28,101 nt of DNA from a virus. The stretch is from the IMG/VR virus record IMGVR_UViG_3300027668_000076, positions 1 to 28,101 of that record. One strand, written 5' to 3'. How positions within the stretch are numbered: position 1 is the stretch's first letter; each line of letters starts with the position of its first letter. This document shows positions 5,778 to 23,963 of the stretch, in pieces. The translations under genes and the position numbers were made by a program. A model generated the notes under the pieces. The model saw only the letters and a program-made list of their open reading frames with translations. It searched no databases and had not been told where the DNA came from.

Positions 5778-6065
5778 ATGGCATTTGAAAAAGGAAACAA
5801 ACTTGCTGGAACAAGAAAAGGAATTCCAAATAAAACAACTTTGGAAATCAGAAATGCATTTCAGTTATTGATTGAAAACAACCAAGACAAAATGCAATTG
5901 TGGTTGACAGAAACAGCAATGGAAGAACCAGCAAGAGCATTGGAAATCATTTTGAAGATGTCTGAATATATTGTTCCTAAGCTATCAAGAACAGAAGTAA
6001 AAGCAGAAATTACAGATAAGTCAATTGTTATTAATTTAAGACCATTGGATGTCAACAACAATTGA
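5778..6065 (+). CDS. terS: Terminase small subunit (putative)
   Basis: A 95-residue protein directly upstream of, and overlapping by 17 nt, the large terminase gene. The N-terminus FEKGNKLAGTRKGIPNKTT is a basic leader of a type common in small terminases and related phage DNA-binding proteins. It is followed by helices including IRNAFQLLIENN and PARALEIILKMSEYIVPKL. It would recognise phage DNA and load the large subunit. Identification rests on the N-terminal pattern, size and position. The start ATG 5778 follows an A-rich leader. Confidence 0.7.
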   Translation: MAFEKGNKLAGTRKGIPNKTTLEIRNAFQLLIENNQDKMQLWLTETAMEEPARALEIILKMSEYIVPKLSRTEVKAEITDKSIVINLRPLDVNNN

Positions 6066-7365
6066 TATAGACTTATTTCCAAAGCAAGTTGAATGCTTTC
6101 AATACTTAGAAGATGATTCAACAACTGAAATTCTTTTTGGTGGTGGTGCAGGTGGTTCAAAAACTTTTACTGGTTGCCTTTGGCAAATACACAGAAGACT
6201 TCAATATGCTGGAACAAGAAGTGTGATTGGAAGAAGTAAATTGAAGAATCTAAAGTCAACAACTTTGAACACATTTTTTGAAGTTGCACAAGACTTTTGT
6301 GGTTTGAAACCAAATGAAGATTTCACATACAATGCACAAGATTCAACAATCACTTTCTTCAACGGTTCAATTATATATTTGAAAGATTTGTTTTTATATC
6401 CAAGTGATCCAGACTTCACTTCACTTGGTGGACTTGAAATCACAGATTGTTTCATTGATGAATGTTCTGAAGTTTCACACAAGGCAATCAACATTCTAAA
6501 TTCAAGAATAAGATTCAAGCTGGACAAATACAACTTGATTCCAAAAACATTGATGACTTGCAATCCAACAAAAACTTGGTTGTATTCTGAATTTTACAAA
6601 CCATCAAAAGAAAACAGACTTCAAAGTCACAGACAATTCATTCAATCACTTGTGACAGACAATAAAGCAATTTCAATACATTACATTAACCAGCTTGAAA
6701 AACTGGATAAGGTGTCAAGACAAAGACTTCTTCTTGGTGATTGGGAATACAATGAAGATGATGCATTGCTTTTTGATTATGATGCAATCCATGATATGTT
6801 TACCAATTCAATTGAAAGTGGTTTAGGTTTCATCACTTGTGATGTTGCCAGATTTGGTGCAGATAAAACGGTCTTGATGTTCTGGAATGGAATGTCAGTT
6901 GAAAAGATTGTGATGCTGGACAAATCTTCAATATTTGACACAATAGATGCAATCAAATCAATGGCACTTCAACACAATGTTCAAAGGTCACACATCATTG
7001 TTGATGAAGATGGTGTTGGTGGTGGTGTTAAAGATGGTCTTTCTGGTATCAAAGGATTTGTGAATGGAAGTAAAGCATTAAAGTCAGAAAACTTTCAGAA
7101 CTTAAAAACACAATGCTACTTTAAACTTGGTGAAATGGTGAATGCTGGAAAGCTATCAATTAAAGATTCAAGATATAAACAAACAATCATTGAAGAACTT
7201 GAAATCATCAAGCGTGACAAATTAGATAAGGACACACAAAAGCTTTCAATTGTACCAAAGGACACAATGAAACAATTGCTTGGAAGGTCACCAGATTATG
7301 CTGATGCATTGATGATGAGAATGTGGTATGAAGTCAAAGGAAATTACGGAGTATATGCTTTCTGA
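6049..7365 (+). CDS. terL: Terminase large subunit
   Basis: This 438-residue packaging motor carries an N-terminal ATPase and a C-terminal nuclease. Walker A is GGGAGGSKT (31-39) and Walker B is CFIDE (134-138). The coupling motif is TCNPTKTW, near 173. The RNase H-like nuclease shows Asp265 in TCDVARFGADKT, Asp319/Asp321 in IVDEDGVGGG, and Asp416/Asp419 in SPDYADAL, the expected acidic cluster. Length is normal for phage large terminases. The gene overlaps terS by 17 nt. Portal and capsid genes do not follow as usual; they come ~11-14 kb later, after the tail module. Confidence 0.95.
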   Translation: MSTTIDIDLFPKQVECFQYLEDDSTTEILFGGGAGGSKTFTGCLWQIHRRLQYAGTRSVIGRSKLKNLKSTTLNTFFEVAQDFCGLKPNEDFTYNAQDSTITFFNGSIIYLKDLFLYPSDPDFTSLGGLEITDCFIDECSEVSHKAINILNSRIRFKLDKYNLIPKTLMTCNPTKTWLYSEFYKPSKENRLQSHRQFIQSLVTDNKAISIHYINQLEKLDKVSRQRLLLGDWEYNEDDALLFDYDAIHDMFTNSIESGLGFITCDVARFGADKTVLMFWNGMSVEKIVMLDKSSIFDTIDAIKSMALQHNVQRSHIIVDEDGVGGGVKDGLSGIKGFVNGSKALKSENFQNLKTQCYFKLGEMVNAGKLSIKDSRYKQTIIEELEIIKRDKLDKDTQKLSIVPKDTMKQLLGRSPDYADALMMRMWYEVKGNYGVYAF

Positions 7366-7402
7366 AAGGAAAAAACAAAACAATCAACTTTAAACTATTG
7401 AA

Positions 7403-7975
7403 ATGAAAAAGACTTTTGAAATAGACATTCCTACAATTTGGGATGATGTTAGTATTAAGAAGTATCAAAATTATATTGATGCAATTAAAGACTTAGTTGA
7501 TGAAAGGAAAATCATCATTAAAACAATAAGTGTGTTGTGTTCAATTCCTGAATATGTGGTTGAAGTTATGAAGCTGAAAGACTTGAAGATAATTCAAGAA
7601 AACTTACAGAAATTAATCAATCATCCAGTCAACAAAACCATCATTAACAAGATTGAGATTGATGGAATAAAATATGGCTTCCATCCAAATCTTGATGAAT
7701 TGACACTTGGTGAATTTGTAGATGTTGAAACATTCACAAAGGAAAATGACATTGCAAAGATGATGTCAATTCTTTATAGACCAATAGTCAAAGAAGATGG
7801 AAACAGATATGACATTGAACCATATGATTTTGATGTGCATTCAATTAATAGTGTTAAATTTGAAAGATTATCAATCAATGTAGGAAATGCAATTGTGGTT
7901 TTTTTTTGGACTTTAGGTCAAGAATTATTGAACAATTTTCATCAGTCTTCAAAGGTGGTGGAAAAAAATCAGTAA
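7403..7975 (+). CDS. Tail assembly chaperone, zero-frame product (putative)
   Basis: A 190-residue soluble protein. It begins KKTFEIDIPTIWDDVSIKKY and contains IDGIKYGFHPNLDELTLGEF and MMSILYRPIVKEDG, a pattern common in Bacteroidota phage proteins near tail genes. A canonical -1 slippery heptamer, A AAA AAT (7963-7969), lies two codons before its stop. Slippage would extend it by 62 residues into the next frame, for a 251-residue product. The short/long pair matches lambda gpG/gpGT-type tail assembly chaperones that guide tape-measure assembly. The unusual point is position, next to terL rather than just before the tape measure. Function is inferred from the frameshift plus tail context. Confidence 0.6.
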   Translation: MKKTFEIDIPTIWDDVSIKKYQNYIDAIKDLVDERKIIIKTISVLCSIPEYVVEVMKLKDLKIIQENLQKLINHPVNKTIINKIEIDGIKYGFHPNLDELTLGEFVDVETFTKENDIAKMMSILYRPIVKEDGNRYDIEPYDFDVHSINSVKFERLSINVGNAIVVFFWTLGQELLNNFHQSSKVVEKNQ

Positions 7976-8157
7976 GTTCAAATTATGGATGGTTTGCAAT
8001 TATTGATTCTCTTGCTGGAGGTGATTTATTGAAGATTGATCCAATTACTAATCTACCATTGATGTTGTGTTTGACTAAACTATCACTTGATGCAGATAAA
8101 CAAATTGAAAGAGATAAAGAGGCAAGACAAAAACAAAACAAAACAAAAAGAAGATGA
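7906..8157 (+). CDS. Frameshifted C-terminal part of the tail assembly chaperone
   Basis: This reading frame lies -1 to the preceding gene. Between its upstream limit and the conserved-looking block SNYGWFAIIDSLAGGD it has no ATG, only a TTG at 7906. Expression by -1 frameshifting at 7963-7969 is therefore more likely than independent initiation; the added part would run from 7969 to 8157 (62 residues). The end is highly charged (ERDKEARQKQNKTKRR). The stop overlaps the next gene as ATGA at 8154. A less likely alternative is a separate small protein starting with TTG. Confidence 0.55.
   Translation: MDFRSRIIEQFSSVFKGGGKKSVSSNYGWFAIIDSLAGGDLLKIDPITNLPLMLCLTKLSLDADKQIERDKEARQKQNKTKRR
7963..7969 (+). 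other. Programmed -1 ribosomal frameshift site, A AAA AAT
   Basis: In the zero frame the codons are GAA AAA AAT CAG TAA (7961-7975). The heptamer A AAA AAT fits X XXY YYZ, so both tRNAs can re-pair after slipping back one base. The -1 frame is then open for 62 more codons. No strong downstream hairpin is obvious in the A+T-rich sequence. Confidence 0.65.
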
Positions 8158-9359
8158 TAACTTACAAAGCCATCATTCAGTACTTTGATTCTATAGCAGA
8201 CCAACACCAGCAAATCAATTCATTCACTTATGGTGAAATTGACTTGTTTGACAAAGATAAGTTCACAGAATATCCAGCTTTACACATAACACCAACTGCA
8301 ACATCTATTGATGACCAGGTTGTTGTTTATGGTTTTGATGTTGTTGTTTTTGACAGATACAACATTGAATCAAACAAGATGAGAAATGAAGCAAATTGTC
8401 TGTCTGATTCATTACTAATTCTTCAAGATTTATGTAAAGAAATCACAGATGGAAAGTATTTCATAAATGCAGACACTTTGATTTCAATGGAACTTCCAGT
8501 ATCAGCACAACCATTCATAGACACAGAACCAGATAGTTGTTCAGGATGGGCAACATCATTCAATGTCATCACACCTAATGAAGCATCTGCTTGTCTAATT
8601 CCGTATTTTAATCCAGAAAGACAGAATGCATTAAAATTTACACTTCCAGATTCTGTACCTTCAAGTATTGCGTGGTATTCAAGAGAAAGAATACACAATC
8701 AAACAACATTTAGTGGTCAAGAAATTGAAGAACTTGCACCAGTTGTTGATACAATATCTGGTATCAATGTTTTAAGAATGAATGGATCAAGCGCAACTTG
8801 GTCACCATTAAAGAATGCTTTTCATTTCTCAAATTCTGATCCATCAAATGCAATGTATTTGGAGCATCCAGTAACAACACAAACTGATGCAACTTTCTTT
8901 GTAAGAATTAAAGACTTTTCAAGATATTCAATTGGAAATGGTAGCAATGCAATTTTTTATGTTGGAGGAACTTTAAGCGCTCTTGATGGTTTTGAAGTTT
9001 ATGTTGAATTTTCAACTGGAAAATTAGCATTGTTAGATTATAGTACACCTTCTTCAATGCGTTCAGAAACAATTTGCCCAACTAATGGAAATAGTTTTGA
9101 TACTGCACACAAAAGACTTGAATCATTAACTTTTTGTGTTCAATTAACAACAAGTAAAATAACTTTGTGGTGGGGCAGTACTGCAAATGAAACAGAATCA
9201 ATTTTCACAGCATTTGATTTCACAAATAAAAACTTTGGAATTGGGAATCCAACCGTTAATAATTTATCAGAATTTTATCTTCAAGAATTTATATTTTCAC
9301 CAACTGCAATGACTAATGCAAACATTGAATCAACAATGGAATGGTTAAATTTTAGATAG
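8154..9359 (+). CDS. Neck/tail-terminator-like protein with C-terminal LamG-like domain
   Basis: A 401-residue protein with two parts. Residues ~1-150 (MITYKAIIQYFDSIADQHQQ, then INSFTYGEIDLFD and a beta-rich VVVYGFDVVVFDRYN) resemble the tail-terminator or neck proteins of Bacteroidota phages. Residues ~165-401 are beta-rich, with AFHFSNSDPSNAMYL, DATFFVRIKDFSR, KITLWWGS and a final NIESTMEWLNF, typical of LamG/concanavalin-like sandwich domains that bind glycans. Such a fusion would display a carbohydrate-binding module at the head-tail joint. The start is in an ATGA overlap with the frameshifted gene. The LamG call is by fold pattern and has no catalytic motif to confirm it. Confidence 0.6.
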   Translation: MITYKAIIQYFDSIADQHQQINSFTYGEIDLFDKDKFTEYPALHITPTATSIDDQVVVYGFDVVVFDRYNIESNKMRNEANCLSDSLLILQDLCKEITDGKYFINADTLISMELPVSAQPFIDTEPDSCSGWATSFNVITPNEASACLIPYFNPERQNALKFTLPDSVPSSIAWYSRERIHNQTTFSGQEIEELAPVVDTISGINVLRMNGSSATWSPLKNAFHFSNSDPSNAMYLEHPVTTQTDATFFVRIKDFSRYSIGNGSNAIFYVGGTLSALDGFEVYVEFSTGKLALLDYSTPSSMRSETICPTNGNSFDTAHKRLESLTFCVQLTTSKITLWWGSTANETESIFTAFDFTNKNFGIGNPTVNNLSEFYLQEFIFSPTAMTNANIESTMEWLNFR

Positions 9360-9941
9360 ATGATTCCAACTACTAAACAAGAACTTCAGAAATTTGGAAC
9401 AAGAGTTGTGAAACTTGCAAGAATCAATCTTGGTGCATCCAAAATGATTGATGGAAAGAAACGAGTTACAAATAATACTGGCGCACTTTCTTCATCATTA
9501 GGTTTCAGTCTTAAACAGAAAAGAAGTTCAGGTGGAAAGTTTGCAAGTGGTTTTGATTTGGAATTCACATCATCTGAAGATTATGCATCTTTCATGGAAC
9601 AAGGTGTGAAAGGTTCTGAAAGCACAAAACCATCAGCGAAGAATTCACCATTCAAATTCAAAGGAAAGAATGTTGCAAAGGGTGTGATTATGGAGTGGAT
9701 TGAAACAAAACCAATAAGACTTCGTGAACTTGGAACTGGTAAATTCAAAAAGAATACTGAATCAGCAAGAAAGACACAAGCGTTTTTAATTGGTCGTGGA
9801 ATAGCAACAAAAGGATTGTCTGCAAGAAACTATTTCAAAGATGCAATTGAAATGGCTATTCCAAAAGATGGAACTGATGTTGCACTTTCAATGGCTAATG
9901 ATTTCATCAAGCAAATTATACAAGAAATTAAACTTACATAA
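9360..9941 (+). CDS. HK97 gp10-like head-tail / minor tail protein
   Basis: A 193-residue basic protein. NTGALSSSLGFSLK (residues ~39-52) and YASFMEQGVKGSES (~75-88) match the conserved pattern of HK97 gp10-like neck proteins (strand, then an ExG turn near the middle). Residues 90-110 are Lys-rich, with SPFKFKGKN. It probably forms a ring at the head-tail joint or assists tail completion. It starts at the base directly after the upstream TAG. Its position beside the putative tail-terminator gene agrees. Confidence 0.65.
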   Translation: MIPTTKQELQKFGTRVVKLARINLGASKMIDGKKRVTNNTGALSSSLGFSLKQKRSSGGKFASGFDLEFTSSEDYASFMEQGVKGSESTKPSAKNSPFKFKGKNVAKGVIMEWIETKPIRLRELGTGKFKKNTESARKTQAFLIGRGIATKGLSARNYFKDAIEMAIPKDGTDVALSMANDFIKQIIQEIKLT

Positions 9942-9942
9942 G

Positions 9943-11427
9943 ATGGCTTTAACAATTACCATGAATAATTTAAACTTTAACATAAGTTCTGGAATGAATC
10001 TGGCGTATATGTCAACAGACACACCAATATTTCCAGCAGCTGGTGGTGTTTACAAATTCAGATTCTTGATTGAAGTGAATTATAATATTCAATCAAACCC
10101 CCTTATTACAAAAACTATTTCTTTTACACAACAAATTACGGACGATGGAAAAAGTCTGTTTAATTTCTCAGAAATATATAAATCAATTGTTACTCCACAA
10201 ATTACTGCATCAAGAAATAGTGATGCACCTGGTGGAGCAATTCCTTTGATGAAAGGAAATATTCACACATTGCCTATAAAAGCATCAGGCACAATGAATC
10301 CAATATCAGCAGGATTGCTTAATGAACTTCAAGGTTTAGAATCATTCAAAGGTGTTGCAAATGTCATGACAATTAATTTTTATGAAATGTTTTCAGCAAT
10401 TCCTAATGGTATACCTGCAAAAGATATAACCACTTTAAAAACAAAAAAAGTGTTTATGTTTTGGGGTAGAGGTCAAGAAGAAGAAGGTGTTGTCATAGAC
10501 TTTTCACCTTATGTATTTACCGTTGCTGCACCAGGAAAATTATTATCTTCAAATTATAACATACAAAATAATTTGTCAAAAATAAACATTGGTAAAAATG
10601 AATATCATACTATTTCAATATTAAATAAATGTGAAATTAATACATCATCATTGCCAGAAGTGATAAGAATCAGATATTATGATGGGGCTGATGCTTCTGG
10701 TAGTGTATTAGGTAATATCACCTATAAAAATGTTTCGGCAAATGGTGGTGCTTATCTATCAACAATTGACACAGAATTTTTTTATTTATTTTTTGGAGTT
10801 GGTCTTGAAAATTTACAAAAACTTGTAATTGATGGAACAAATGTAGCTGGAACATTACCAGATTCTGTTGCTGGTGGTCGTGATGCTATTAAATCTTTCA
10901 CATTATTTTTTGAAGAAAATGGTGGTGCAACAATTACTTCAATAACTTATATGTTTAATGTTGTAAATTATTGTGAAGAATATGACCAATCAAGATTGTC
11001 ATACATGAATAGATTTGGCGCTTGGGAATATATTACATTGAACAAAGAAAGAACAGATGAATTGAATGTAAAGAAAGAATATGTTACAACACCAATTACT
11101 ACACAAGATAATAGTAGTTTACTTGCCTTTTTACCAAATGCAATTGATATGGCATATCCTCTTGATGTTGCAAAGCAAGGAAAGTCAACAACATCAGTTT
11201 CATCAGCAATCACAACAACAATGTTTACTGATTACCTGAATGAATCAGAAGTTGAACAAATTAAAGACTTGATGATGTCACCACAGATTCATTTATTGGA
11301 TGGTGAAAATGCCAAAGCTTTAATTCTTGAAACGAGTTCAATGAAATTAAAGCGTGAAAAAAATCGTGGTTTGTATCAATATGAACTAAAGTTTAAATTT
11401 GCAAATCCAAAATTTAGAACTACATAA
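9943..11427 (+). CDS. Distal tail/baseplate structural protein
   Basis: A 494-residue beta-rich protein. I choose ATG 9943, one base after the upstream TAA; a longer frame opens earlier but lies inside the gp10-like gene. The C-terminal ~130 residues include RLSYMNRFGAWEYITL and then VEQIKDLMMSPQIHLLDG, a pattern I associate with baseplate or distal tail proteins of Bacteroidota phages. The middle is Gly/Ser/Thr-rich with several strands. The ATG of the next, very large tail gene overlaps its stop. It would link the tail tube to the hub. Function is from context and pattern, without a catalytic motif. Confidence 0.6.
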   Translation: MALTITMNNLNFNISSGMNLAYMSTDTPIFPAAGGVYKFRFLIEVNYNIQSNPLITKTISFTQQITDDGKSLFNFSEIYKSIVTPQITASRNSDAPGGAIPLMKGNIHTLPIKASGTMNPISAGLLNELQGLESFKGVANVMTINFYEMFSAIPNGIPAKDITTLKTKKVFMFWGRGQEEEGVVIDFSPYVFTVAAPGKLLSSNYNIQNNLSKINIGKNEYHTISILNKCEINTSSLPEVIRIRYYDGADASGSVLGNITYKNVSANGGAYLSTIDTEFFYLFFGVGLENLQKLVIDGTNVAGTLPDSVAGGRDAIKSFTLFFEENGGATITSITYMFNVVNYCEEYDQSRLSYMNRFGAWEYITLNKERTDELNVKKEYVTTPITTQDNSSLLAFLPNAIDMAYPLDVAKQGKSTTSVSSAITTTMFTDYLNESEVEQIKDLMMSPQIHLLDGENAKALILETSSMKLKREKNRGLYQYELKFKFANPKFRTT

Positions 11428-14400
11428 TGAGTACACAAATAAGAGTTCAGACACAAGAAAGTTTAATCAACACATCACAAATTGTATTTTTAGACTTAGC
11501 AGATAATCAACCAATTTCTGCTGATTATCAATTCAAGGACATTCAATCATTTAAAAATACAAAAGGAAATTATACATACAATTTCAGAATTCCATCAACT
11601 ACAAACAACAATGTATTCTTTGGTGATTATTTTGAAGTGACATCATTTGGAAATTATAATCCAAAAATAAAAGTTGAAGCAACTATTACAAAAGACACAA
11701 TTGATGTCTTCAATGGCTATTTACAATTGACAAATGTATTTACTTCAAATAATGAAATAAGTTCATATGAATGTGTGGTCTTCAGTTCTGTTGCTACTAT
11801 TGGACAAATTCTTGATTCTTTAATGCTAAGTGATTTTGATTGGTCTGAATATAATCATATTTTGACACCACAGAATGTTCAAGATTCAATGAATAGGGAT
11901 GCAGTTGGATTGTTTGGTGGTGACATTGTATATTCATTATTTGATTATGGCGCACAATTTATTGGTGGGAACACAACAAGTTCATGCACTAATCAAGATT
12001 CAAGTGGAGTTGCAACAAATCCAATTAATATAAGGAATTTAAAACCACAAATTAAAGTTCAAAAAGTTTTACAAAAGATTATTTTAGATTCAGGATTTAC
12101 ATATGAATCAACTTTCTTTGATACAACAATGGCTGATTTGTATATGGACATCAATTCTGGTGGTGCTGGAAATACAACTTTGACAGATCCAAACTTTTAT
12201 AGAATAGATGTACAAGGTGAATTTAATACTGGTGGAACATTTCCAGCATCAGTTGGCGTTCATACAATAATACCTAATAATTTATTGCCACCTTCAGGTC
12301 AACCAGACTTTATGAATGCATCTGGTCAATTTGACACAACAACTGGAATATATTCACCAAGTGGAAATTGGAACTTGTCTGCATTTGGCGCTCAAGTTGG
12401 GCTAAGTAGTAGTGGTTTACAGATAGAATACACATTTGGATTGTTTAATATTACGGACAATATTTTTACACAATTTGAAACAGATATTCAAACACTTAAC
12501 AATGGTACTCAACAAAGTTTTCTTGGTGGTTTTAATCCTAATTTTATAAACACCTTTGAAAGTGGAAAACAATATAAGTTAATTGTAACTATATTATCAA
12601 CTTCTTCACCTACAAGTACAATCACAATCCTTGAATCAGCATTTAGAAATACACCTGCATCAGATGGATATGTTGGAGTATCACCAAATAGTGGAAATTT
12701 AAATATTACACCATATGATGCAACAACTGAATATTCAGTCAATGCAAATCTTCCAAATGTAAAAGCACTTGATTTTTTAACTTCACTTACAAAAAAGTTT
12801 AATCTGATTATTGTACCAGATGAACTTCAACCAACACATTTATATATTGAACCATATTCAGAATGGATTGAAAAAGGTAATTCAGTAAATTGGACTGAAA
12901 AAATAGATGTTTCAAAAGATATTCAAATAAAGCCAACCGTTGATTTACAAGCTAAGAATTTATCATTTACTGATGCAAGTTCTGAAGACTTCATGAATTC
13001 AATGTTTGAAGCATCAACTGATAGGATTTATGGAACACAAAATATAGACAATACTGAAAATGATTTTGGAAAAGATAAAGAAGAAATAAAAACAATTTTT
13101 AAACCAACAATCACAAGTCAAATTCCTGATACACCAATAAGATATTCAGTTGCTTATAATCAAGAAAATGACAATGTTACTTGTGAACCAGGAATCAGAT
13201 TATCATTCTATTGTGGTTTTATATTAACTGATTCAAATGATGGTGTTCAAATTTATAGTGAAACACCAGAAGCAACATCATCACTTTCTTTGACATCTTA
13301 TGGATTGTTGCAAAACTATAAAGATGCAGTAATACTTCCAGCAACAGAATGTCTGTCATTCATGGGTGAATATACTGGTTCTTTAGCATCACCAATATCA
13401 ATGAATTCTTCATATTTTGTGTACTGGAAAAATTTTATTGATGAAACTTATTCAATTAATGCAAGATTATTAATTGCATCATTTTATCTTTCTTCACTTG
13501 ATATATTATCAATGAATTTTAATGATATTATATTTGTTAAAAACGAATATTTTAGAATTAATAAAATATCAAATTATCCATTAATAGGAACATCAACTTG
13601 TCAAGTTGAATTGATTAAAGTTGCAAGAATTAATAAATTTGACAAAGCTGGAAATGATTGTGCTATTGAGCCAAGTTTTATCACCATCAATGGTGGTGTT
13701 GTTAACTTCATAAGTACAATAGGAGGGTTTGCAGTTATTCCAACACAATCATGTTGTGAAGCATTTGGATATACATATGCAAATGGAGTATGTACACAAG
13801 TCTTTTCTGGTGGAGGTGTTCCAGATAGTGGAGGTGGTGTTTCCGATCCATCTGCTGGTGGTGGTGGAAACAAAGGATTTTCTGGTGATAGTTTGAGTTT
13901 AAATACTTCAAGTTTATTGATTAACAACACTATAAAAGGACTGAATGAAGTTAGTGGTTCATATAATAATGTTCATGGGCCAGGAAACGCAATTCAAACA
14001 AATCATTCAAATGTCAATGGATTCTTTAATTTTATTAAAACTGATTCTCTTGGTAATTCCATAAAAGGTGATTCAAATGCTATTGATTCAAATACTAAAT
14101 ATTCAATTATAGAAGGTAGCAATAATTTATTAAATCCTTATTCACTTAATTATAATTCAACATATCTTGATGTGTATTCAAGACAAAAATTTAAAAACAA
14201 TTCAATTCAAGGTGATTATGCAATTGCACTTGGTAATGGTGAAGAATTCATTTCTGGTGGTGCTGATCCATTATATAACAAGCGTGGAAGAAGTGGTTCT
14301 GGACAATTTGTGAAACATTGCCAGTCAAGGAATAAAGAAGATATAAATATTGGTCAAAATGGTATATTCATTTTTAGCACTTTAATAAATAATGAATTTT

Positions 14401-15515
14401 TTACAGAACAAGCAACAAATTTATTTAGACTTCAATTTCCTTCAATCATTGGTTTTGAAGTTTCAGTTGTTGGTCATGAAAGAGGTGTTGTTGCAAATCG
14501 GTCACAACTTTATTCATTTAGAATCTATAAAGGAGTTATAAATAACACAACCAATTCTGGAAATGTATCAATTAGAAACTTGACACTTGACACGCAAAAA
14601 GAATCATCAGAATTTTCAGCATATAATTTCAATGTTTTGCCTGGACAAGCATATTTTGATGGACAATATGTTGATGATGGAATGTTTTATTTTAATATCA
14701 ACATGACTGGTGCTGATGCTTTAAGTGATGTTGATTGGACAATTGACTTTAAATATACTCTTGTTGGTTTACAAAATATTGATAGACCATCAAATCAAAG
14801 AACATTTTCACCACCTTCAATTTCTGGTTGTTTATTATGGGTTGATTCAAATCAACCAGCAACAATCACACATTCTGGTGGTGCAATTTCTCAATGGGAT
14901 GATTTGTCTGGAAACAACCACCATTTGACACAATCAACATCAGCTTATAAACCAGTTTATTCACAATCAATTGCAGATTCATATGTTTCATTTAGTGGTG
15001 TGAATCAAGTTCTTGGAAATCAAGCATCAACATTGATAAATGCTTCAGATGGTGATAATACTATTTTTGTGGTTTTCAAATCTGATAATACTACAACATC
15101 AACACGAGGTGAAACAATTGCTGGAATTTGTAATCGAGCGCAACAACTATATGGAATAAATATTAACAATTCAGTTTCTGGTGCAGGTGGTTCATCATTT
15201 ATGAACAAATCATCACAAGACTATGGTAATAGAGTTTCAATAATTCCTTCAACAACTAAACAAGTTGTAATTGGAACAAGGTCTTCAGTTACACGAGAAA
15301 TTTTTGACCAAGATGGTAATACAGATTCAGACAATAATTCATCTAATACTGCACAAGACACATTTGTTGTTGGTGCAACATGGGATGGAACTTCAAGGTC
15401 ACCAGTTGCAGACTATTCAGGAAAGGTTTATGAAGTAATAGTTTACGGAGTTAAATTAACAGAAGCACAAAGAAATCAAGTACAAAATTATCTACAAACA
15501 AAATGGAACACATAA
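11427..15515 (+). CDS. Tail hub / receptor-binding protein, multidomain
   Basis: This 1362-residue protein is the largest product here. Residues ~1-560 look like a baseplate hub: an N-terminal beta region (YTYNFRIPSTTNNNVFFGDY) and IKVEATITKDTIDVFNGYLQ, with a later NLPNVKALDFLTSLTKKFNL like tail-hub folds. A Gly-rich linker lies near 795-817. It is followed by ~100 residues of GNxI/GxxN-type repeats (NSIKGDSNAIDSN) suggesting a beta-solenoid fibre. From ~1131 to the end is a LamG-like domain (LLWVDSNQPATITHSGG, QWDDLSGNNHH, and final VYEVIVYGVKLTEAQRNQ). It probably connects the tail tip to the host surface and binds glycans. The start overlaps the upstream stop by one base. Confidence 0.7.
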   Translation: MSTQIRVQTQESLINTSQIVFLDLADNQPISADYQFKDIQSFKNTKGNYTYNFRIPSTTNNNVFFGDYFEVTSFGNYNPKIKVEATITKDTIDVFNGYLQLTNVFTSNNEISSYECVVFSSVATIGQILDSLMLSDFDWSEYNHILTPQNVQDSMNRDAVGLFGGDIVYSLFDYGAQFIGGNTTSSCTNQDSSGVATNPINIRNLKPQIKVQKVLQKIILDSGFTYESTFFDTTMADLYMDINSGGAGNTTLTDPNFYRIDVQGEFNTGGTFPASVGVHTIIPNNLLPPSGQPDFMNASGQFDTTTGIYSPSGNWNLSAFGAQVGLSSSGLQIEYTFGLFNITDNIFTQFETDIQTLNNGTQQSFLGGFNPNFINTFESGKQYKLIVTILSTSSPTSTITILESAFRNTPASDGYVGVSPNSGNLNITPYDATTEYSVNANLPNVKALDFLTSLTKKFNLIIVPDELQPTHLYIEPYSEWIEKGNSVNWTEKIDVSKDIQIKPTVDLQAKNLSFTDASSEDFMNSMFEASTDRIYGTQNIDNTENDFGKDKEEIKTIFKPTITSQIPDTPIRYSVAYNQENDNVTCEPGIRLSFYCGFILTDSNDGVQIYSETPEATSSLSLTSYGLLQNYKDAVILPATECLSFMGEYTGSLASPISMNSSYFVYWKNFIDETYSINARLLIASFYLSSLDILSMNFNDIIFVKNEYFRINKISNYPLIGTSTCQVELIKVARINKFDKAGNDCAIEPSFITINGGVVNFISTIGGFAVIPTQSCCEAFGYTYANGVCTQVFSGGGVPDSGGGVSDPSAGGGGNKGFSGDSLSLNTSSLLINNTIKGLNEVSGSYNNVHGPGNAIQTNHSNVNGFFNFIKTDSLGNSIKGDSNAIDSNTKYSIIEGSNNLLNPYSLNYNSTYLDVYSRQKFKNNSIQGDYAIALGNGEEFISGGADPLYNKRGRSGSGQFVKHCQSRNKEDINIGQNGIFIFSTLINNEFFTEQATNLFRLQFPSIIGFEVSVVGHERGVVANRSQLYSFRIYKGVINNTTNSGNVSIRNLTLDTQKESSEFSAYNFNVLPGQAYFDGQYVDDGMFYFNINMTGADALSDVDWTIDFKYTLVGLQNIDRPSNQRTFSPPSISGCLLWVDSNQPATITHSGGAISQWDDLSGNNHHLTQSTSAYKPVYSQSIADSYVSFSGVNQVLGNQASTLINASDGDNTIFVVFKSDNTTTSTRGETIAGICNRAQQLYGININNSVSGAGGSSFMNKSSQDYGNRVSIIPSTTKQVVIGTRSSVTREIFDQDGNTDSDNNSSNTAQDTFVVGATWDGTSRSPVADYSGKVYEVIVYGVKLTEAQRNQVQNYLQTKWNT

Positions 15516-15745
15516 GAATCACAATTTCCAAAAAAGCAAATTTCACAACATTGAAAAGGCTTGATTTCACACCGATGTTTCAATATTGGAATGGTGCAAT
15601 GAAGTTCATTCCAAAGGTGCTGAAATACCTTCCAAATGACTTGTATGAAAACAACAAGTGTTTGACTTGGTATGAAAGGCAAGTTGTAAAAAACAGAAAG
15701 AAAATGATTGAATTTAAAAATATATTCAGATGGCTGAAAAAATAG
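15503..15745 (+). CDS. Hypothetical small basic protein before the tape measure
   Basis: An 80-residue protein rich in Lys, Arg, Trp and Tyr, with NNKCLTWYERQVVKNRKKMI near its end. It overlaps the hub gene by 13 nt and the tape-measure gene by 16 nt, so it is translated with them. No domain is recognised. It may be a minor tail component or an assembly factor. Confidence 0.6.
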   Translation: MEHIRITISKKANFTTLKRLDFTPMFQYWNGAMKFIPKVLKYLPNDLYENNKCLTWYERQVVKNRKKMIEFKNIFRWLKK

Positions 15746-17496
15746 TTGTAGACATAGAGTTCCAAACTAATGTTTCCAAGATTTCAAAAGATTTGGAATC
15801 AGTAAAAGATGCATTAGCTGATACAAATGAGAATCTTGAAGATATTGCAAAGACTGGAAAATCAACAGATGGTGCTTTGGGAAAAATTGGAAAAGGATTC
15901 AAGGGTGTTGGACTTGCGATGAAAACACTTGGTGTTGGTCTTATAGTTGAAGCATTCAAGTTTTTGAAAGATATCTTGATGCAAAATCAAACGGTTGTTG
16001 ATGGAATTGCTATTGCAACTGAAACACTTGGTGTTGTCTTTAATCAAATCACTTCAGTTGTCACAGATGTATTTGATGCAGTATCAAAATCATCTGAAGG
16101 ATTTGAAGGTTTACAAAAAGTAATTGGTGGCTTGATGACAATTGCAATTTCACCATTAAAACTTGCATTCTTTGGAATTACTAAAGCAGTTCAAGAAGGT
16201 CAATTGGCATGGGAACAATCCTTTTTTGGTGATGGTGATCCAGAAACTATTGCACAACTGAATGAAAAATTAGCTGAAACAAATGCAAATTTAAAAGAAG
16301 TTGTTGAAGATGTTGTTGAAGCAGGAACAGAAATTTCAACTAATATTGCTGAAGCAGTCACAGAAATTGGTTCAGTTGTTTCAATTGCAACTGAAGTTGC
16401 AACAGAAGGAATCAAAGAAATATCAATTGCTGGTGCTTTAGCAACTGGAACTGCTCTTGCTGATGCAAAGAAGAATGAAGAACTTCTTGAAGTCCAAAGA
16501 GCAACACAACAACTACAAGGTCAATTGGATGCAGAAATGCAAAGACAAATCCGTGATGATGTCAGAAAAACATTTGAAGAAAGAATTGCAGCAAATGATG
16601 AACTTGGAAAGGTACTTGAAGAACAGACTGCAAAAGAAAAAGCAGTTGTTGATGAAAAAGTAAGAATTGCAAAACTTGAACTTTCAACAAATGAAACATC
16701 TGTTGAATTGCAAAAGAAACTTTCTGAAGCACTACTTGGTCAACTTGAATTAAAAGAAAGAATTGCAGGTCAAACATCTGAACAATTAACAAATCAAGCA
16801 GCACTTGAAAAAGAATTGTTTGATGCACAAAATGAAATTCAACTTGCAACAATGACTGCAAGAGAACAAGAACTTCTTGCACTTGAACAAGACTACAATG
16901 CTAAATTGGAACTTTCAAGAAAAGCTGGTGAAGATGATGTTGCAATAACAGAACAATACAATGCTCTTGTTCAAGAATCAAATGATAAATTTGCAGATGA
17001 AGACTTAAAAACATTTGAAGAACTTGCAAAAGCAAAAGATGATGCCAGGCAAAATGAAATACAAATGTTGTCAAATACAATTCAGATGGCTGGTGACTTA
17101 TTTGCTGAGGGAACTGCTGCATCAAAAGTATCTGGTGTTGCAACTGCAACAATCAACACTTGGACTGGAGTTACAGAAGCCTTGAAGTTGCCACCACCAT
17201 TTTCTTATATTCAAGCTGGTTTGACTTTAGCATCTGGTTTGAAAAGTGTGAAGAATATAATGGCAGTAAAAACAGAAAAACCAACACCAGAAACAGATAC
17301 TGGTAATATTAATCTTCCATCTGGTGGTGTAGATACACAATCAATCACGGACTTATCAAATATTCCATCAATAACTGAGCAGTTCAATAATCAATTTGTT
17401 CAAGATACACCACCAATTCAAGCATTTGTGGTTGAACAACAAGTCACAAATTCACAACAAATTAACACATTGATTCAACAAAAAGCAACACTTTAA
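15730..17496 (+). CDS. Tail tape measure protein
   Basis: A 588-residue protein. The first ~60 residues are helical and charged. Residues ~50-170 are Gly-rich and hydrophobic (KIGKGFKGVGLAMKTLGVGL, FLKDILMQNQTVVDG, GGLMTIAISPLKLAFFGITK), typical of tape-measure membrane-active regions. Residues ~190-440 are a long Ala/Glu/Lys/Gln coiled coil. Near the end is ATINTWTGVTEALKLPPPFS, then SYIQAGLTLASGLKSVKNIM, a recurrent tape-measure C-terminal pattern. At the usual ~1.5 angstrom per residue this implies a tail near 88 nm, an estimate only. It lies between the hub and protease genes. Confidence 0.8.
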   Translation: MAEKIVVDIEFQTNVSKISKDLESVKDALADTNENLEDIAKTGKSTDGALGKIGKGFKGVGLAMKTLGVGLIVEAFKFLKDILMQNQTVVDGIAIATETLGVVFNQITSVVTDVFDAVSKSSEGFEGLQKVIGGLMTIAISPLKLAFFGITKAVQEGQLAWEQSFFGDGDPETIAQLNEKLAETNANLKEVVEDVVEAGTEISTNIAEAVTEIGSVVSIATEVATEGIKEISIAGALATGTALADAKKNEELLEVQRATQQLQGQLDAEMQRQIRDDVRKTFEERIAANDELGKVLEEQTAKEKAVVDEKVRIAKLELSTNETSVELQKKLSEALLGQLELKERIAGQTSEQLTNQAALEKELFDAQNEIQLATMTAREQELLALEQDYNAKLELSRKAGEDDVAITEQYNALVQESNDKFADEDLKTFEELAKAKDDARQNEIQMLSNTIQMAGDLFAEGTAASKVSGVATATINTWTGVTEALKLPPPFSYIQAGLTLASGLKSVKNIMAVKTEKPTPETDTGNINLPSGGVDTQSITDLSNIPSITEQFNNQFVQDTPPIQAFVVEQQVTNSQQINTLIQQKATL

Positions 17497-17508
17497 AAAC
17501 CAAAAATC

Positions 17509-18366
17509 ATGACTAAAATAGTAGAATTAATTATTTCCGAAGAAGAAAAAGAATCACAAGATGGTGTCTTTGCAATTTCATTAGTTGAAGATCCAGCAAT
17601 AGATGAATATTGGATTGCTTTGAATAAGCAAAAGAAAGAACATATTCAATTTGCAAAAGTAGATGAAGACAAAAGACTATTGATTGCACCAGCTTTGATT
17701 CCAAATAGACAAATTTTTAGACTTGATGATGATGGTTCTGACTACTATGTTTATTTTTCAAAGGATACAATTAAGCAATGTTCTGAATTGTATATGAAAA
17801 GAAATCATCTGCAATCAACAACACTTGAACATGAAGAAGAAGTTGATGGTATGTGTGTAGTTGAATCTTGGGTAAAAGAATTTGAAATTGATAAATCTGT
17901 CAAGTACGGTTTTGAACATTGTCCAGTTGGAACATGGTTTGTTACAATGAAAGTTGAGAATGATGAAATCTGGAACAAAGTCAAAGAAGGTGAAATTCTT
18001 GGATTTAGCATTGAAGGATTTTTTACTGATAAATTAAGCAAATTTGCAAAAGTAAGAAAGAACAATGATTGTTCAGATGGATTTGAACATCAAATGAATG
18101 ATGGATCTTGGATGTGTGGTAAATCAATGGGGTATTCTGAAGAAGAAGGAAATCTTCAAATGATTAAGAACTTAATTGTTGAAGCTGAAACAACATACCT
18201 TGAATCTTATCCTTGGGATGAATGTATTGCAGACCAAATGGCTGAATATGGCAATGAAGAAACTGCAAACAAGATTTGTGCAGCTATTAAAAACAGAACA
18301 ATTGCATCTTCAGTTGTTCCAAAAGTAAAAGCAATCCTTGATGTTGAAAGGAAAAAAAGCAATTAA
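17509..18366 (+). CDS. XkdF-like prohead protease
   Basis: A 285-residue protein matching XkdF-type phage proteins and capsid-maturation proteases. The core (~50-175) includes RLLIAPALIPNRQIFR, YVYFSKDTI, TTLEHEEEVDGMCVVESWV and WNKVKEGEILGFSIEGFF. His108 in LEHEE and Ser167 in FSIEG are candidate catalytic residues by analogy with S78-type prohead proteases. Two add-on modules follow: CSDGFEHQMNDGSWMCG (188-204) and SYPWDECIADQM...NKICAAI (233-260), Cys-containing pieces often appended to phage head proteins. It is followed by a scaffold and capsid gene, the expected order for a maturation protease. Confidence 0.8.
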   Translation: MTKIVELIISEEEKESQDGVFAISLVEDPAIDEYWIALNKQKKEHIQFAKVDEDKRLLIAPALIPNRQIFRLDDDGSDYYVYFSKDTIKQCSELYMKRNHLQSTTLEHEEEVDGMCVVESWVKEFEIDKSVKYGFEHCPVGTWFVTMKVENDEIWNKVKEGEILGFSIEGFFTDKLSKFAKVRKNNDCSDGFEHQMNDGSWMCGKSMGYSEEEGNLQMIKNLIVEAETTYLESYPWDECIADQMAEYGNEETANKICAAIKNRTIASSVVPKVKAILDVERKKSN

Positions 18367-18405
18367 CATCTATTAACTTACGGAAAAACAATTCAAAAAA
18401 CTAAA

Positions 18406-18969
18406 ATGGAGAACATTTACAACAAAATGAAAGACTTGTTTGGTATTACCGAAGAACTTTCAGAAGAAACAAAAATGATGGCTGAAGCTTATCTTGTGGA
18501 TGGTACAACCATCAAAACAGATGCAGACAGATTTGAAGAAGGTTCAATGGTGTTTGTAGTTGGTGAAGATGATGAAAGAATGGCATTACCTTCTGGAACT
18601 TATGAATTGCAAGATGGTGCAGTCATTGAAGTTGTAGATGGTGAAATCACAACACTTCGTTCACCAGAAGCATCTGATGATGCAGTTGAAGAAGATATGT
18701 CTTCAAAAGAAACTGAAGTTGATTTATCAAACTACATGACAAAGTCTGATGGTTTTGAACTTGGTAAAATGATTACTGAAGCAATTGAATTGAAGGTTTC
18801 TGAATTAATGGAAGCACATAATACGGAACTTGAAAAGGTGAAGAAATTATCTGCAGCCAAAACATTCAAATCAACACCAAAACCAGCAAAGAAGTTTGTT
18901 CAAGAGAATCAAACAGACAATGCAGAATCACGAGTATTCGCAATTTTTAACAAAATAAAAAACAAGTAA
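18406..18969 (+). CDS. Capsid scaffolding protein (putative)
   Basis: A 187-residue acidic protein directly before the major capsid gene and after the protease. The N-terminal half is Glu/Asp-rich, with a small beta module (GSMVFVVGEDDERMALPSGT, then YELQDGAVIEVVDGEI). Residues ~118-150 form an amphipathic coiled coil, and the C-terminus is Lys-rich (STPKPAKKF). That layout fits scaffolds that bind capsid protein through a basic tail and are then cleaved. Its start follows the leader AAAAAACTAAA with no Shine-Dalgarno. Confidence 0.7.
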   Translation: MENIYNKMKDLFGITEELSEETKMMAEAYLVDGTTIKTDADRFEEGSMVFVVGEDDERMALPSGTYELQDGAVIEVVDGEITTLRSPEASDDAVEEDMSSKETEVDLSNYMTKSDGFELGKMITEAIELKVSELMEAHNTELEKVKKLSAAKTFKSTPKPAKKFVQENQTDNAESRVFAIFNKIKNK

Positions 18970-18970
18970 A

Positions 18971-19936
18971 ATGGCAAATAGTAGACAACATAATTTAGCA
19001 ACTTCACCAGTTTCTGCTGGTTGGACTTATGCTGGAGAATTAGCACTTCCATACATCCATGCATCAGTAGTATCAGCACCAACACTTCATGGTGGAAATG
19101 TGACACTACTTGATGGAATAAGATACAAAGCAATTATTCCAGTTATGTCAAACACAAGTTTGATTGAAGCTGCTTCATGTGACTTTCAAACAACTGCAAC
19201 AACTACACTTGCAGAAAGAACTTTAAGCGTTACTGACTTAATGGTGAATTTGGAACTTTGTAAAAATTCATTTAATGTTTCAGACACAGATGGTAATTCT
19301 GGACAAGCATGGTGGCAAGGTGATGCATATTCAAATGAACAAGGTGTTCCAGATGACTATGCTGATGCTTTATTGTTATATGTTGCAAAATCAGTTCAAG
19401 CTGATATTGAAAACAATATCTGGATGGGTGGTGCAACTACATCTGGATTTGCTGCATTTGATGGATTCAAGAAAGCTTTAGGGAATACTGCTGGAGCAAC
19501 ATCATTAACATCTTCTATTGTAACACAAGCAGGAGTAATTGCTGGACTTAATGAAATTGTGACTGCAATGCCAGTAGGAATTACTGGTGATTTTGAGAAC
19601 ACAAATATATATGTGAATCCTGCAACTATATCTGCATACAATCTTGCAATTGGTCAAACTGGAAATGGATATAATGATGCATCTGCAAATGGAGGTCAAA
19701 CAAATTTCATTGGATATAAACTTGTATCTGCACCAGGAATTGCAGTTGGTGAAGCATGTCTTGGTCAAAGAGGAAATTTATTTGTAGGAATTGGAACTGC
19801 TGATTCAGATTCACTTGCACAAGCAATTGATATGACACCATTGGATGGTTCAAACAATTACAGAATCACAATGAGATGGGCAATTGGAACGCAAGTTGGT
19901 GTTGTTGCTGATGCAATTTGGTTTGTAGCACCTTAA
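18971..19936 (+). CDS. Major capsid protein
   Basis: A 321-residue protein with the composition and layout of an HK97-fold capsid subunit. The N-terminal part carries GIRYKAIIPVMSNTSLIEAA and TLAERTLSVTDLMVNLELCK. The middle has a long helix (DDYADALLLYVAKSVQADIE) and IWMGGATTSGFAAFDGFKKA. The C-terminal part carries NIYVNPATISAYNLAIG, NFIGYKLVSAPGIAVGEACL and a final RWAIGTQVGVVADAIWF, resembling the A-domain. It lies one base after the scaffold gene, the standard protease-scaffold-capsid order. Confidence 0.85.
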   Translation: MANSRQHNLATSPVSAGWTYAGELALPYIHASVVSAPTLHGGNVTLLDGIRYKAIIPVMSNTSLIEAASCDFQTTATTTLAERTLSVTDLMVNLELCKNSFNVSDTDGNSGQAWWQGDAYSNEQGVPDDYADALLLYVAKSVQADIENNIWMGGATTSGFAAFDGFKKALGNTAGATSLTSSIVTQAGVIAGLNEIVTAMPVGITGDFENTNIYVNPATISAYNLAIGQTGNGYNDASANGGQTNFIGYKLVSAPGIAVGEACLGQRGNLFVGIGTADSDSLAQAIDMTPLDGSNNYRITMRWAIGTQVGVVADAIWFVAP

Positions 19937-19953
19937 TTTCAATAATTGAATAA

Positions 19954-19979
19954 GAAGGAGGTATTGAATTACATCCTTC
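19954..19979 (+). promoter_or_regulatory. Hairpin between capsid and tail-tube candidate
   Basis: GAAGGAGGTA (19954-19963) pairs with TACATCCTTC (19970-19979), with one mismatch and loop TTGAAT. There is only a weak T-tract (CATTCTTT), so it may be a leaky terminator or an RNA-stabilising hairpin that raises capsid mRNA relative to downstream genes. It lies in the 71-nt gap between two highly expressed structural genes. Confidence 0.5.
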
Positions 19980-20007
19980 CATTCTTTAACTTAAAACAAA
20001 AATAACA

Positions 20008-20607
20008 ATGGCAAATTGTTTAATTTCTTCAGGTCGTGGACACTTTTGTCAAGGACAAGTTGGAGGTATAAAAACCATATTTCTTGCAAACTGGTATAGT
20101 GCTAATAAGATTATAAGCGTGACTGCTGCTGCTGATACTGGTATTGTTACTGCATTAACACAAGTTACTACACCAGCACCAACTCAACTTCAATTTTTTC
20201 AGTTTGATTTGGACAGACAAACATCTTCTTTAAATCAAACAATCACAACTGGTGGTGGTGGTGCAATCAATTATGAACAAGCACTTGATGTACATATGTC
20301 ACACGATTCACAGGAATCTTGGGCAAGAATGCAGAATGTGACTGAAGGTGTTTTTCAAGTTATCATCTTAGATAACAATGGAGTGTATTATTTAGCAGGT
20401 GTAGATAATGGAATCAGCGTTACTGGTGGTACTTATGCACATGGTGGTGATGTAGCTTTCACAGACTATGTTGGTTATATTATGCAAATGGTAGGTTCTG
20501 AACCTTTCCCAGCATTCAATTTATCAACGGTTGATCCATTCACAAATGCATTATTTTCAACAGAAATTGGGTTGAATGTAGCTACATACAATGACCCACA
20601 ATTATAG
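20008..20607 (+). CDS. Major tail (tube) protein, putative
   Basis: A 199-residue beta-rich protein. It begins with CLISSGRGHFCQGQVGGIKT, and a long central stretch has SSLNQTITTGGGGAINYEQA then LDVHMSHDSQESWARMQNV. The end contains YYLAGVDNGISVTGGTYAHG and YVGYIMQMVGSEPFPAF, a pattern of tail-tube proteins in many Bacteroidota phages (entity name, ENG/DNG turn, final GxEPFPA). It follows the capsid gene after a hairpin and precedes a strong terminator. A capsid decoration protein is the main alternative. Confidence 0.6.
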   Translation: MANCLISSGRGHFCQGQVGGIKTIFLANWYSANKIISVTAAADTGIVTALTQVTTPAPTQLQFFQFDLDRQTSSLNQTITTGGGGAINYEQALDVHMSHDSQESWARMQNVTEGVFQVIILDNNGVYYLAGVDNGISVTGGTYAHGGDVAFTDYVGYIMQMVGSEPFPAFNLSTVDPFTNALFSTEIGLNVATYNDPQL

Positions 20608-20637
20608 TTGATAGCTTTACATTAATAAAAAAACAAG

Positions 20638-20669
20638 ATGGTGGTGGTTAATTCCATCACCATTTTTTT
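20638..20669 (+). terminator. Strong intrinsic terminator
   Basis: ATGGTGGTGG (20638-20647) pairs with CCATCACCAT (20654-20663) through ten pairs with one G-T wobble, loop TTAATT, followed by six T's (20664-20669). It closes the structural operon after the tail-tube candidate. The ATG that opens a longer in-frame reading of the next gene lies in this stem, so that start is rejected. Confidence 0.9.
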
Positions 20670-20670
20670 A

Positions 20671-20678
20671 TATCTTTA
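20671..20678 (+). promoter_or_regulatory. Possible -7 promoter element, TATCTTTA
   Basis: TATCTTTA differs from the Bacteroidota -7 consensus TAnnTTTG only at the last base. It sits right after the terminator and 5 bp before ATG 20683, which would give a leaderless or very short-leader mRNA. No good TTTG box is seen at the -33 position, so support is moderate. Confidence 0.4.
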
Positions 20679-20682
20679 CTTT

Positions 20683-20850
20683 ATGAGAATTAAAAAAGAA
20701 TTTATTGGAAGCACAATTCACAAAGGTCGTGTGAAAATTCAACTTCGTGAAGTTGTAACAGAAGCAACAATGGAGAGATTGAAAGCTGAATTCCCACAAT
20801 TTTTAGAAGAAGACAAACCAAAGAAGAAAAAGAAAGATGTTACATCTTAG
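20683..20850 (+). CDS. Hypothetical 55-residue protein
   Basis: A short basic protein starting at ATG 20683, after the terminator. It has EFIGSTIHKGRVKIQLREVV (beta-rich), then MERLKAEFPQFLEED and a Lys-rich end (KPKKKKKDVTS). The motif and length recall small proteins between tail and portal genes in Bacteroidota phages. Function is unknown. It overlaps the next gene by 14 nt. Confidence 0.6.
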   Translation: MRIKKEFIGSTIHKGRVKIQLREVVTEATMERLKAEFPQFLEEDKPKKKKKDVTS

Positions 20851-21337
20851 AAGTTCAAATGGTTTTCAGAATGTGTTTTCATTAGATGTATTTTCAAGTG
20901 TCTTTGCAAACACCATTTCCAATTTTGGAAGAGAAATTCCAGAAACAAGACAATACACACCAAACTTTAATTCTGATTATACTGGATTTATTTATTATAT
21001 ACAATTAATTGACCAGCTTACACAAGACATTTATTGGGCTGAATTATATTATAATAATGCAGGTAATAAATATCCAAGAGCAATGCAATTCAAAATATAT
21101 CTTGATGAATTTGTTGGTGATTATCATGTGAATGTTAAAACAACTGGACTTTTTGATTATGAAATTTTTTTTGGTCAACGAGGTGCAACAAATTCAGATG
21201 ATTCATTAATTAATGGAATGGTTGCAAATGGAATGGCACTTGTTCACAATGACAATTTCAAAAATGACTACTTCCAGAATTCACAGAATGGAGTAGAACC
21301 AACTATAATTCCACCTTCAATATCATACAATGGCTAA
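20837..21337 (+). CDS. Hypothetical structural protein upstream of portal
   Basis: A 166-residue beta-rich protein. It includes YTGFIYYIQLIDQLTQDIYW, DYHVNVKTTGLFDYEIFFGQ and MVANGMALVHNDNFKNDYF near the end. The beta pattern and the final ALVHNDNF segment suggest a small virion protein such as a head fibre or neck accessory. It overlaps the upstream gene by 14 nt and the portal gene by 8 nt. No catalytic motif or signal peptide is seen. Confidence 0.6.
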   Translation: MLHLRSSNGFQNVFSLDVFSSVFANTISNFGREIPETRQYTPNFNSDYTGFIYYIQLIDQLTQDIYWAELYYNNAGNKYPRAMQFKIYLDEFVGDYHVNVKTTGLFDYEIFFGQRGATNSDDSLINGMVANGMALVHNDNFKNDYFQNSQNGVEPTIIPPSISYNG

Positions 21338-23399: not shown

Positions 23400-23402
23400 A
23401 TT

Positions 23403-23963
23403 ATGGCACTACCAACACAAGTCATCTATATTGATGCAACTTATATGAAAGCATATTCACATCTTGATGGATCAATAGATGAAAAGGATTTGTTGCCATC
23501 AATTATACAAGCACAAGATAGTCAAATACAACCAATTCTTGGAACTGATTTGTTCAATGCTTTAAAGACAAAAATTACAGCTGGAACAATTGCTGGTAAT
23601 TATCAAACACTTCTTCAAGACTATGTTCAGATGGCAACATTAAAATGGACATTGGTGAATTTTTATCCATATCTGCAAGGTAAAATTCTGAATGGAACAA
23701 TTGGTTCAAGGAATGTGGACAATATTACAGCACTTTCACAATCTGAAGTGATGAGATTGGTTGACATTGAAAGAGATAATGCACAATTTTACACAGAAAG
23801 ATTGATTCAATACTTGACAAATAACACTACATTGTTTCCAGAATACGCATCAAATACTGGTTCAGACATTTATCCAGAAACACAAACTTATGCAGAAGCT
23901 GGTTTGACAATTTCAGGTTCACAAAGAGGAATCAACAAATTGGCAAATTGGAATTGCAAATAA
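23403..23963 (+). CDS. Head-tail connector / head completion protein (putative)
   Basis: A 186-residue helical protein after the portal gene. It has DEKDLLPSIIQAQDSQIQPI then LGTDLFNALKTKI, and YVQMATLKWTLVNFYPYLQG, the pattern of the DUF6712/gp6-like connector proteins of Bacteroidota phages. It would bind the portal ring as an adaptor. The start lies 3 nt after the portal stop. The family name is from recall of the pattern and is not verified. Confidence 0.6.
   Translation: MALPTQVIYIDATYMKAYSHLDGSIDEKDLLPSIIQAQDSQIQPILGTDLFNALKTKITAGTIAGNYQTLLQDYVQMATLKWTLVNFYPYLQGKILNGTIGSRNVDNITALSQSEVMRLVDIERDNAQFYTERLIQYLTNNTTLFPEYASNTGSDIYPETQTYAEAGLTISGSQRGINKLANWNCK

Follow-up and report, generated by a model that had tools for sequence, protein, structure and literature searches.

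The gene immediately downstream of terL in the window (here the whole 28,101-nucleotide stretch analysed, positions 1 to 28,101 of IMG/VR virus record IMGVR_UViG_3300027668_000076) is, on comparison with its relatives, a case of real -1 recoding, in which one gene is predicted to give a short and a long product with a common front and different tails. The two proteins are probably made by RNA polymerase slippage at a run of nine Ts (T9, 7899–7907), which would convert U9 to U10 in part of the mRNA, and they probably serve as tail assembly chaperones or initiation factors. All the support is comparative and drawn from sequence. The features discussed are as follows.

6049..7365, + strand: terminase large subunit (terL), immediate upstream neighbour; Terminase_3, E 1e-13
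7403..7975, + strand: zero-frame ORF, the predicted short product of 190 aa, with its stop within these coordinates; 51-member alignment; AlphaFold2 mean pLDDT 83.6
7899..7907, + strand: T9 run (gTT TTT TTT Tgg), putative recoding site from the zero frame to the -1 frame; nine Ts in 142/142 scored junctions
7900..8157, + strand: -1-frame extension, conserved across 51 diverse relatives; fused at T9 to give the predicted long product of 251 aa
7908..7975, + strand: overlap read in both frames; third-position entropy of -1-frame codons is lower there
7963..7969, + strand: A AAA AAT heptamer, probably unused; kept in 14/113 distinct homologues
15730..17496, + strand: tape-measure candidate, 588 aa; PHROGs virion structural protein (phrog_21537, E 3.7e-13)

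Conservation and position of the junction

Whether polymerase or ribosome is responsible, the T run is almost certainly the junction. In the relatives compared, the frame beyond the run is conserved, and a single inserted base connects it with the upstream frame; in the window, one T more in the run gives a fused protein of 251 aa, with a shared N-terminal domain of approximately 168 residues. The first relatives were 20 sequences from IMG/VR, 62–100 % identical to the window, and later scans of viral contigs, genomes and phage records reached relatives with approximately 20–25 % identity to it. Among the IMG/VR relatives the zero-frame stop shifts, giving 190 to 199 aa, and the invariant residues of the -1 frame are F167 F168 L169 F171 R172 ... 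S181 V182 F183 K184 ... Y195 G196 W197 F198.

Exactly nine Ts are found in all 142 scored junction loci (IMG/VR contigs, genomes and phage records), in all three codon phases: gTT TTT TTT Txx at 124 loci, xxT TTT TTT TTx at 15 and TTT TTT TTT at three. The scoring would also catch runs of 8, 10 or 11 joining the same frames, and a pattern search open to lengths of 7–11 bases at this place picked out 22 stretches, all 22 with the length expected from nine. The 142 loci represent 113 distinct proteins, or 52, 25 and 11 clusters at 90, 70 and 50 % identity; these cluster counts are the safer figures, as the locus counts, mostly from metagenomic contigs of which many are related, overstate independence. 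A single locus (L018:3109-3116) has eight Ts, which join neither frame productively, and reflects either a mutation or an error of assembly. One T9 per 28 kb is unremarkable by composition (1.6 expected under a first-order Markov model), and the related DNA, 762 kb in all, has no more than three T9 runs elsewhere, so that conservation of the run at this one spot is not chance. The cultured Nonlabens (Persicivirga) phages P12024L and P12024S carry an identical T9, and in these genomes the two halves (gp40 and gp41 in P12024L) are annotated as separate hypothetical proteins.

A sequence-only reading of the window had proposed that the frames are joined by canonical -1 ribosomal frameshifting at the A AAA AAT heptamer at 7963–7969. 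The heptamer is indeed present, perfect and in the correct frame (GAA AAA AAT CAG TAA), near the stop, from which it is separated by a single codon (CAG) and not by two; the -1 frame does stay open as far as 8157, and it lacks an initial ATG. Against this site, homologues conserve the -1 frame from the T9 run, approximately 60 bases upstream, so that the heptamer would lie inside sequence already in the -1 frame. In the window the -1 frame is likewise open upstream beyond the run, with a protein-like translation (FFLDFRSRIIEQFSSVFKGGGKKSVSSNYGWF...) well ahead of the A-run. Retention by homologous genomes had been suggested as a check on the heptamer, and A AAA AAN occurs in only 14 of 113 distinct homologues, while T9 is kept in all but one. 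The 14 all fall in the closest clade, part of which retains the heptamer, and there it encodes a conserved -1-frame GKK; because it is confined to these sequences and this motif, the heptamer is best viewed as a probable by-product of lysine codons. In addition, a product made by shifting at A AAA AAT would lose the conserved FRxR...SVFK segment. A shift at this heptamer is thus highly improbable, and the junction peptide predicted from it (SKVVEKK then SVSSNYGW) should give way to LSINVGNAIVVFF followed by LDFR. What is retained of the earlier proposal is the -1 recoding itself; its site is not, and its mechanism probably is not either.

Constraint on both reading frames

Third positions of the -1 frame coincide with second positions of the zero frame, and entropy falls there within the overlap. 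In the window clade (22 sequences) it is 0.67 in the overlap, compared with 0.98 upstream and 0.91 downstream; in the freshwater clade (69 sequences) the corresponding values are 0.66, 1.17 and 1.08. This argues for constraint on both frames within the overlap, and because of this dual constraint both the short (190 aa) and the long (251 aa) products look functional. In 61 of the 69 freshwater-clade sequences the zero-frame tail extends for 64 residues from the run.

An internal start for the second frame was considered and rejected on the absence of ATG in homologues. None of 113 distinct homologues has a -1-frame ATG closer than about 12 codons to the run, or anywhere in the open stretch that precedes it; a clear ATG of this kind is what the sequence-only reading had named as contrary to recoding. 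The window has a TTG at 7906, which is TTA in many relatives. Given both observations, separate initiation of the second frame is very unlikely.

These data also bear on the view that no programmed recoding takes place, the two frames being either separately translated genes or the result of a sequencing or assembly indel in the homopolymer. Homopolymers are error-prone, and P12024L and P12024S are annotated with two separate genes. However, the same T9 recurs in two isolate genomes and, across many metagenomes, in more than 140 contigs, on which ground assembly error was rejected as its origin; constraint acts on both frames; and the second frame lacks a plausible start, with ATG near the run in 0/113 homologues and the TTG at 7906 often TTA. 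An explanation of this type has very little probability.

Transcriptional slippage or ribosomal frameshifting

If RNA polymerase slippage operates, most transcripts would carry U9 and direct synthesis of the 190-aa short protein, while slippage on T9 would supply a fraction of transcripts with one extra U (U10), on which the ribosome would proceed in the -1 frame to give the 251-aa long protein. The ratio of short to long protein would be set by the frequency of slippage, and the products would share their N-terminal domain and have two C-termini encoded by the same DNA. The predicted peptides from the window are LSINVGNAIVVFFLDFR for the long form and LSINVGNAIVVFFWTLGQELLNNFHQSSK for the short form; in P12024L they would be MLEAPLIAYSSCILFFLSFR for the long form, with the short form continuing ...ILFFYHLGNDLGIYTQNSTPPQADSK.

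The comparison suggests that programmed slippage by RNA polymerase fits T9 better than ribosomal frameshifting does, because the length of the run is fixed independently of codon phase and is not accompanied by a conserved RNA structure. A run of nine As or Ts with its length conserved in all homologues has been considered very likely to reflect purposeful slippage (Baranov et al. 2005, PMC1088944), and this is the pattern seen here, with one locus excepted. Escherichia coli RNA polymerase slips on runs of at least seven Ts and favours poly(T) (PMC6260861). Against slippage, most positions of the run are also fixed by the amino acids of one or both frames.

Programmed -1 ribosomal frameshifting, by tandem slip of two Phe tRNAs, would yield the same products, because a slippery U UUU UUU lies in frame within T9 in each of the three codon phases, and it is how phage tail chaperones are usually recoded (PMC5009743). 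This route seems less likely than slippage, though not far-fetched. It gives no reason for a constant length of nine across the phases, where 7, 8 or 10 Ts with altered ends are never seen, and it would have to act without a conserved stimulatory structure. Among pseudoknot-free structures, none that is conserved was found upstream or downstream of the run in either clade, and single-sequence RNA-folding z-scores around the run scatter about zero. A stimulatory structure is not present at every ribosomal frameshift site. The last position of the heptamer is, in addition, never C. In the commonest phase this change, T7906C, would be doubly silent (TTT to TTC in the zero frame, TTG to CTG in the -1 frame), and TTC makes up 19 % of Phe codons in these genes. 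Its absence by chance would have a probability of 0.8^21, about 1 %, if the 21 clusters in this phase at 70 % identity are taken as independent, and this argues only moderately against a chance origin.

Slippage by RNA polymerase may also occur at a second site. The portal gene (21330-23399) contains an in-frame run of ten As at 22769-22778 (GCA AAA AAA AAA GAT), where the portal core meets an extra C-terminal domain of approximately 200 residues. One added base gives AGA TGA and one lost base leads to a stop a few codons on; because both other frames stop so soon, slippage here would yield a truncated portal, some 480 residues long, lacking the C-terminal domain, a truncated outcome like that of slippage in Thermus dnaX. 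The run is A10 in nearly all window-clade portals examined and A11 in L164; in L158/L165 (contig of L020) it is A9 with a broken frame, and there is no such run in L169 or in distant portals. The portal A10 run is a candidate second slippage site and is offered as a lead only.

Relation to tail assembly chaperones and to known recoded genes

The sequence-only reading had likened the gene to tail assembly chaperones of the lambda gpG/gpGT type, and a remote family signal does agree with this; no curated chaperone family is matched at its cut-off, and the gene does not stand in the canonical position. The PHROG 'tail protein' family phrog_166 matches 18 of 51 members (best 7.8e-6). Among Pfam families, Phage_TAC_7 is the most frequent match, a weak one that lies below the cut-off (5 of 51 members, best E 0.022), and no NCBIfam chaperone model is matched. 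The window protein was folded as two separate halves. The shared domain is predicted to be mostly helical, with a mean pLDDT of about 84, and gave no PDB match by sequence or fold search. In BFVD, the proteins nearest to it in fold are uncharacterised ones from Caudovirales; weaker BFVD matches with a functional name include three tail assembly chaperones (E 0.016, 0.11 and 0.31). Two products with a common N-terminus by -1 recoding, a feature of the G/GT type, are indicated here by sequence conservation alone. On these profiles and models, it is reasonably likely that the protein is tail-assembly-chaperone-like, and by analogy with lambda gpG/gpGT the pair would most likely act as tail assembly chaperones or tail-initiation factors.

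The position of the gene is atypical, as had been remarked from the sequence. It follows terL (Terminase_3), and is not found between the major tail protein and the tape measure; the tape-measure candidate lies 7.75 kb downstream in the window, and approximately 4.7 and 7.8 kb away, by coordinates, in two related records. This candidate (15730..17496), read as a tape measure both in the sequence-only reading and by us, is present in 15 of 23 related records. The module order across 6049-23963 is itself unusual: terL, the recoded gene, tail-type genes, the tape-measure candidate, a protease, a capsid candidate and, last, the portal. The best phage relatives of the window TerL are those of Flavobacterium phage 11b and Cellulophaga phage phi10:1; together with the P12024 phages and two MAG contigs, they point to Bacteroidota as the probable hosts.

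Lambda gpG/gpGT and the P2-type E proteins (Pfam Phage_TAC_7) resemble the window family in that -1 recoding late in the first frame gives one gene both a short and a long protein with a common N-terminal domain; the weak Phage_TAC_7 and PHROG 'tail protein' matches are a further likeness. In contrast to them, the window family shifts at an invariant T9, probably in transcription; its alternative C-termini overlap, being dual-coded over up to 64 codons; and its gene follows terL, with several genes between it and the tape-measure candidate, and scores below the family cut-offs.

Programmed transcriptional slippage is documented in type III secretion genes and Shigella mxiE and spa13, IS elements with A9, Citrobacter tssM (PMC4256274) and Thermus dnaX, at runs of 9–11 As or Ts (PMC5009743, PMC1088944, PMC4256274). 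As in the window family, an A or T run of conserved length leads in these genes to a pair of products, of which one is extended or truncated. None of them is a phage assembly gene, however, whereas in the present case conservation is family-wide and spans three codon phases. The open-access literature searched describes no phage assembly gene that uses slippage, which is not proof of absence.

Only the N-terminal domain is credibly related to the gp017-type protein of the Duneviridae (Flavobacterium phage laban6-1 and Cellulophaga phage Ingeline; phrog_25418), in an alignment that reaches the FF motif (hhalign probability 94 %, E 1e-7). The gp017-type protein differs in that a single ORF of 301 aa, with no shift, encodes it, lying two genes ahead of the tape measure in Ingeline; beyond the N-terminal domain, the C-terminal parts fail to align. 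Flavobacterium phage 6H, a fold match, was rejected as a T9 example: it has no T9 and its frames are unclear, and in its relatives laban6-1 and Ingeline the gene is a single ORF. The 6H counterpart (L190:10021-10927) is 191 aa and annotated alone, with coding-like sequence continuing in other frames past its stop; it seems to be cut short relative to the 301-aa ORF of laban6-1.

Two further candidates were set aside. Bacteroides phage BS-TP3 gp55 occupies the same place after terL, but its likeness is by eye only and hhalign gives it no support. The small gene pair of Cellulophaga phage phi10:1, with an A8 overlap ahead of a large structural gene, is unrelated to the window gene. In that phage, whose terminase is related to that of the window, an unannotated ORF (L023:25889-26580; the gene numbering passes over gp085) ends at an A8 run which also opens gp086, just ahead of the large structural gene; this looks like a classical frameshifting tail chaperone pair.

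In the literature, recoding in phage tail chaperones is ribosomal -1 frameshifting (reviewed in PMC5009743). On balance, we favour the view that in a widespread family of phages of Bacteroidota, programmed RNA polymerase slippage at an invariant T9 determines the ratio between two dual-coded assembly proteins, and that the window clade may repeat the trick at the portal A10. The comparison also exposes a gap in annotation, in that two 'hypothetical proteins' of P12024L and P12024S appear to be one recoded gene. The occurrence of the same run in three codon phases offers a natural contrast between transcriptional and translational recoding in Bacteroidota. If slippage at T9 is confirmed, transcription would do in these phages what ribosomal frameshifting does in other tailed phages; and if slippage sets the ratio of short to long protein, evolution would have kept the ratio and not the mechanism, as in dnaX of E. 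coli compared with that of Thermus.
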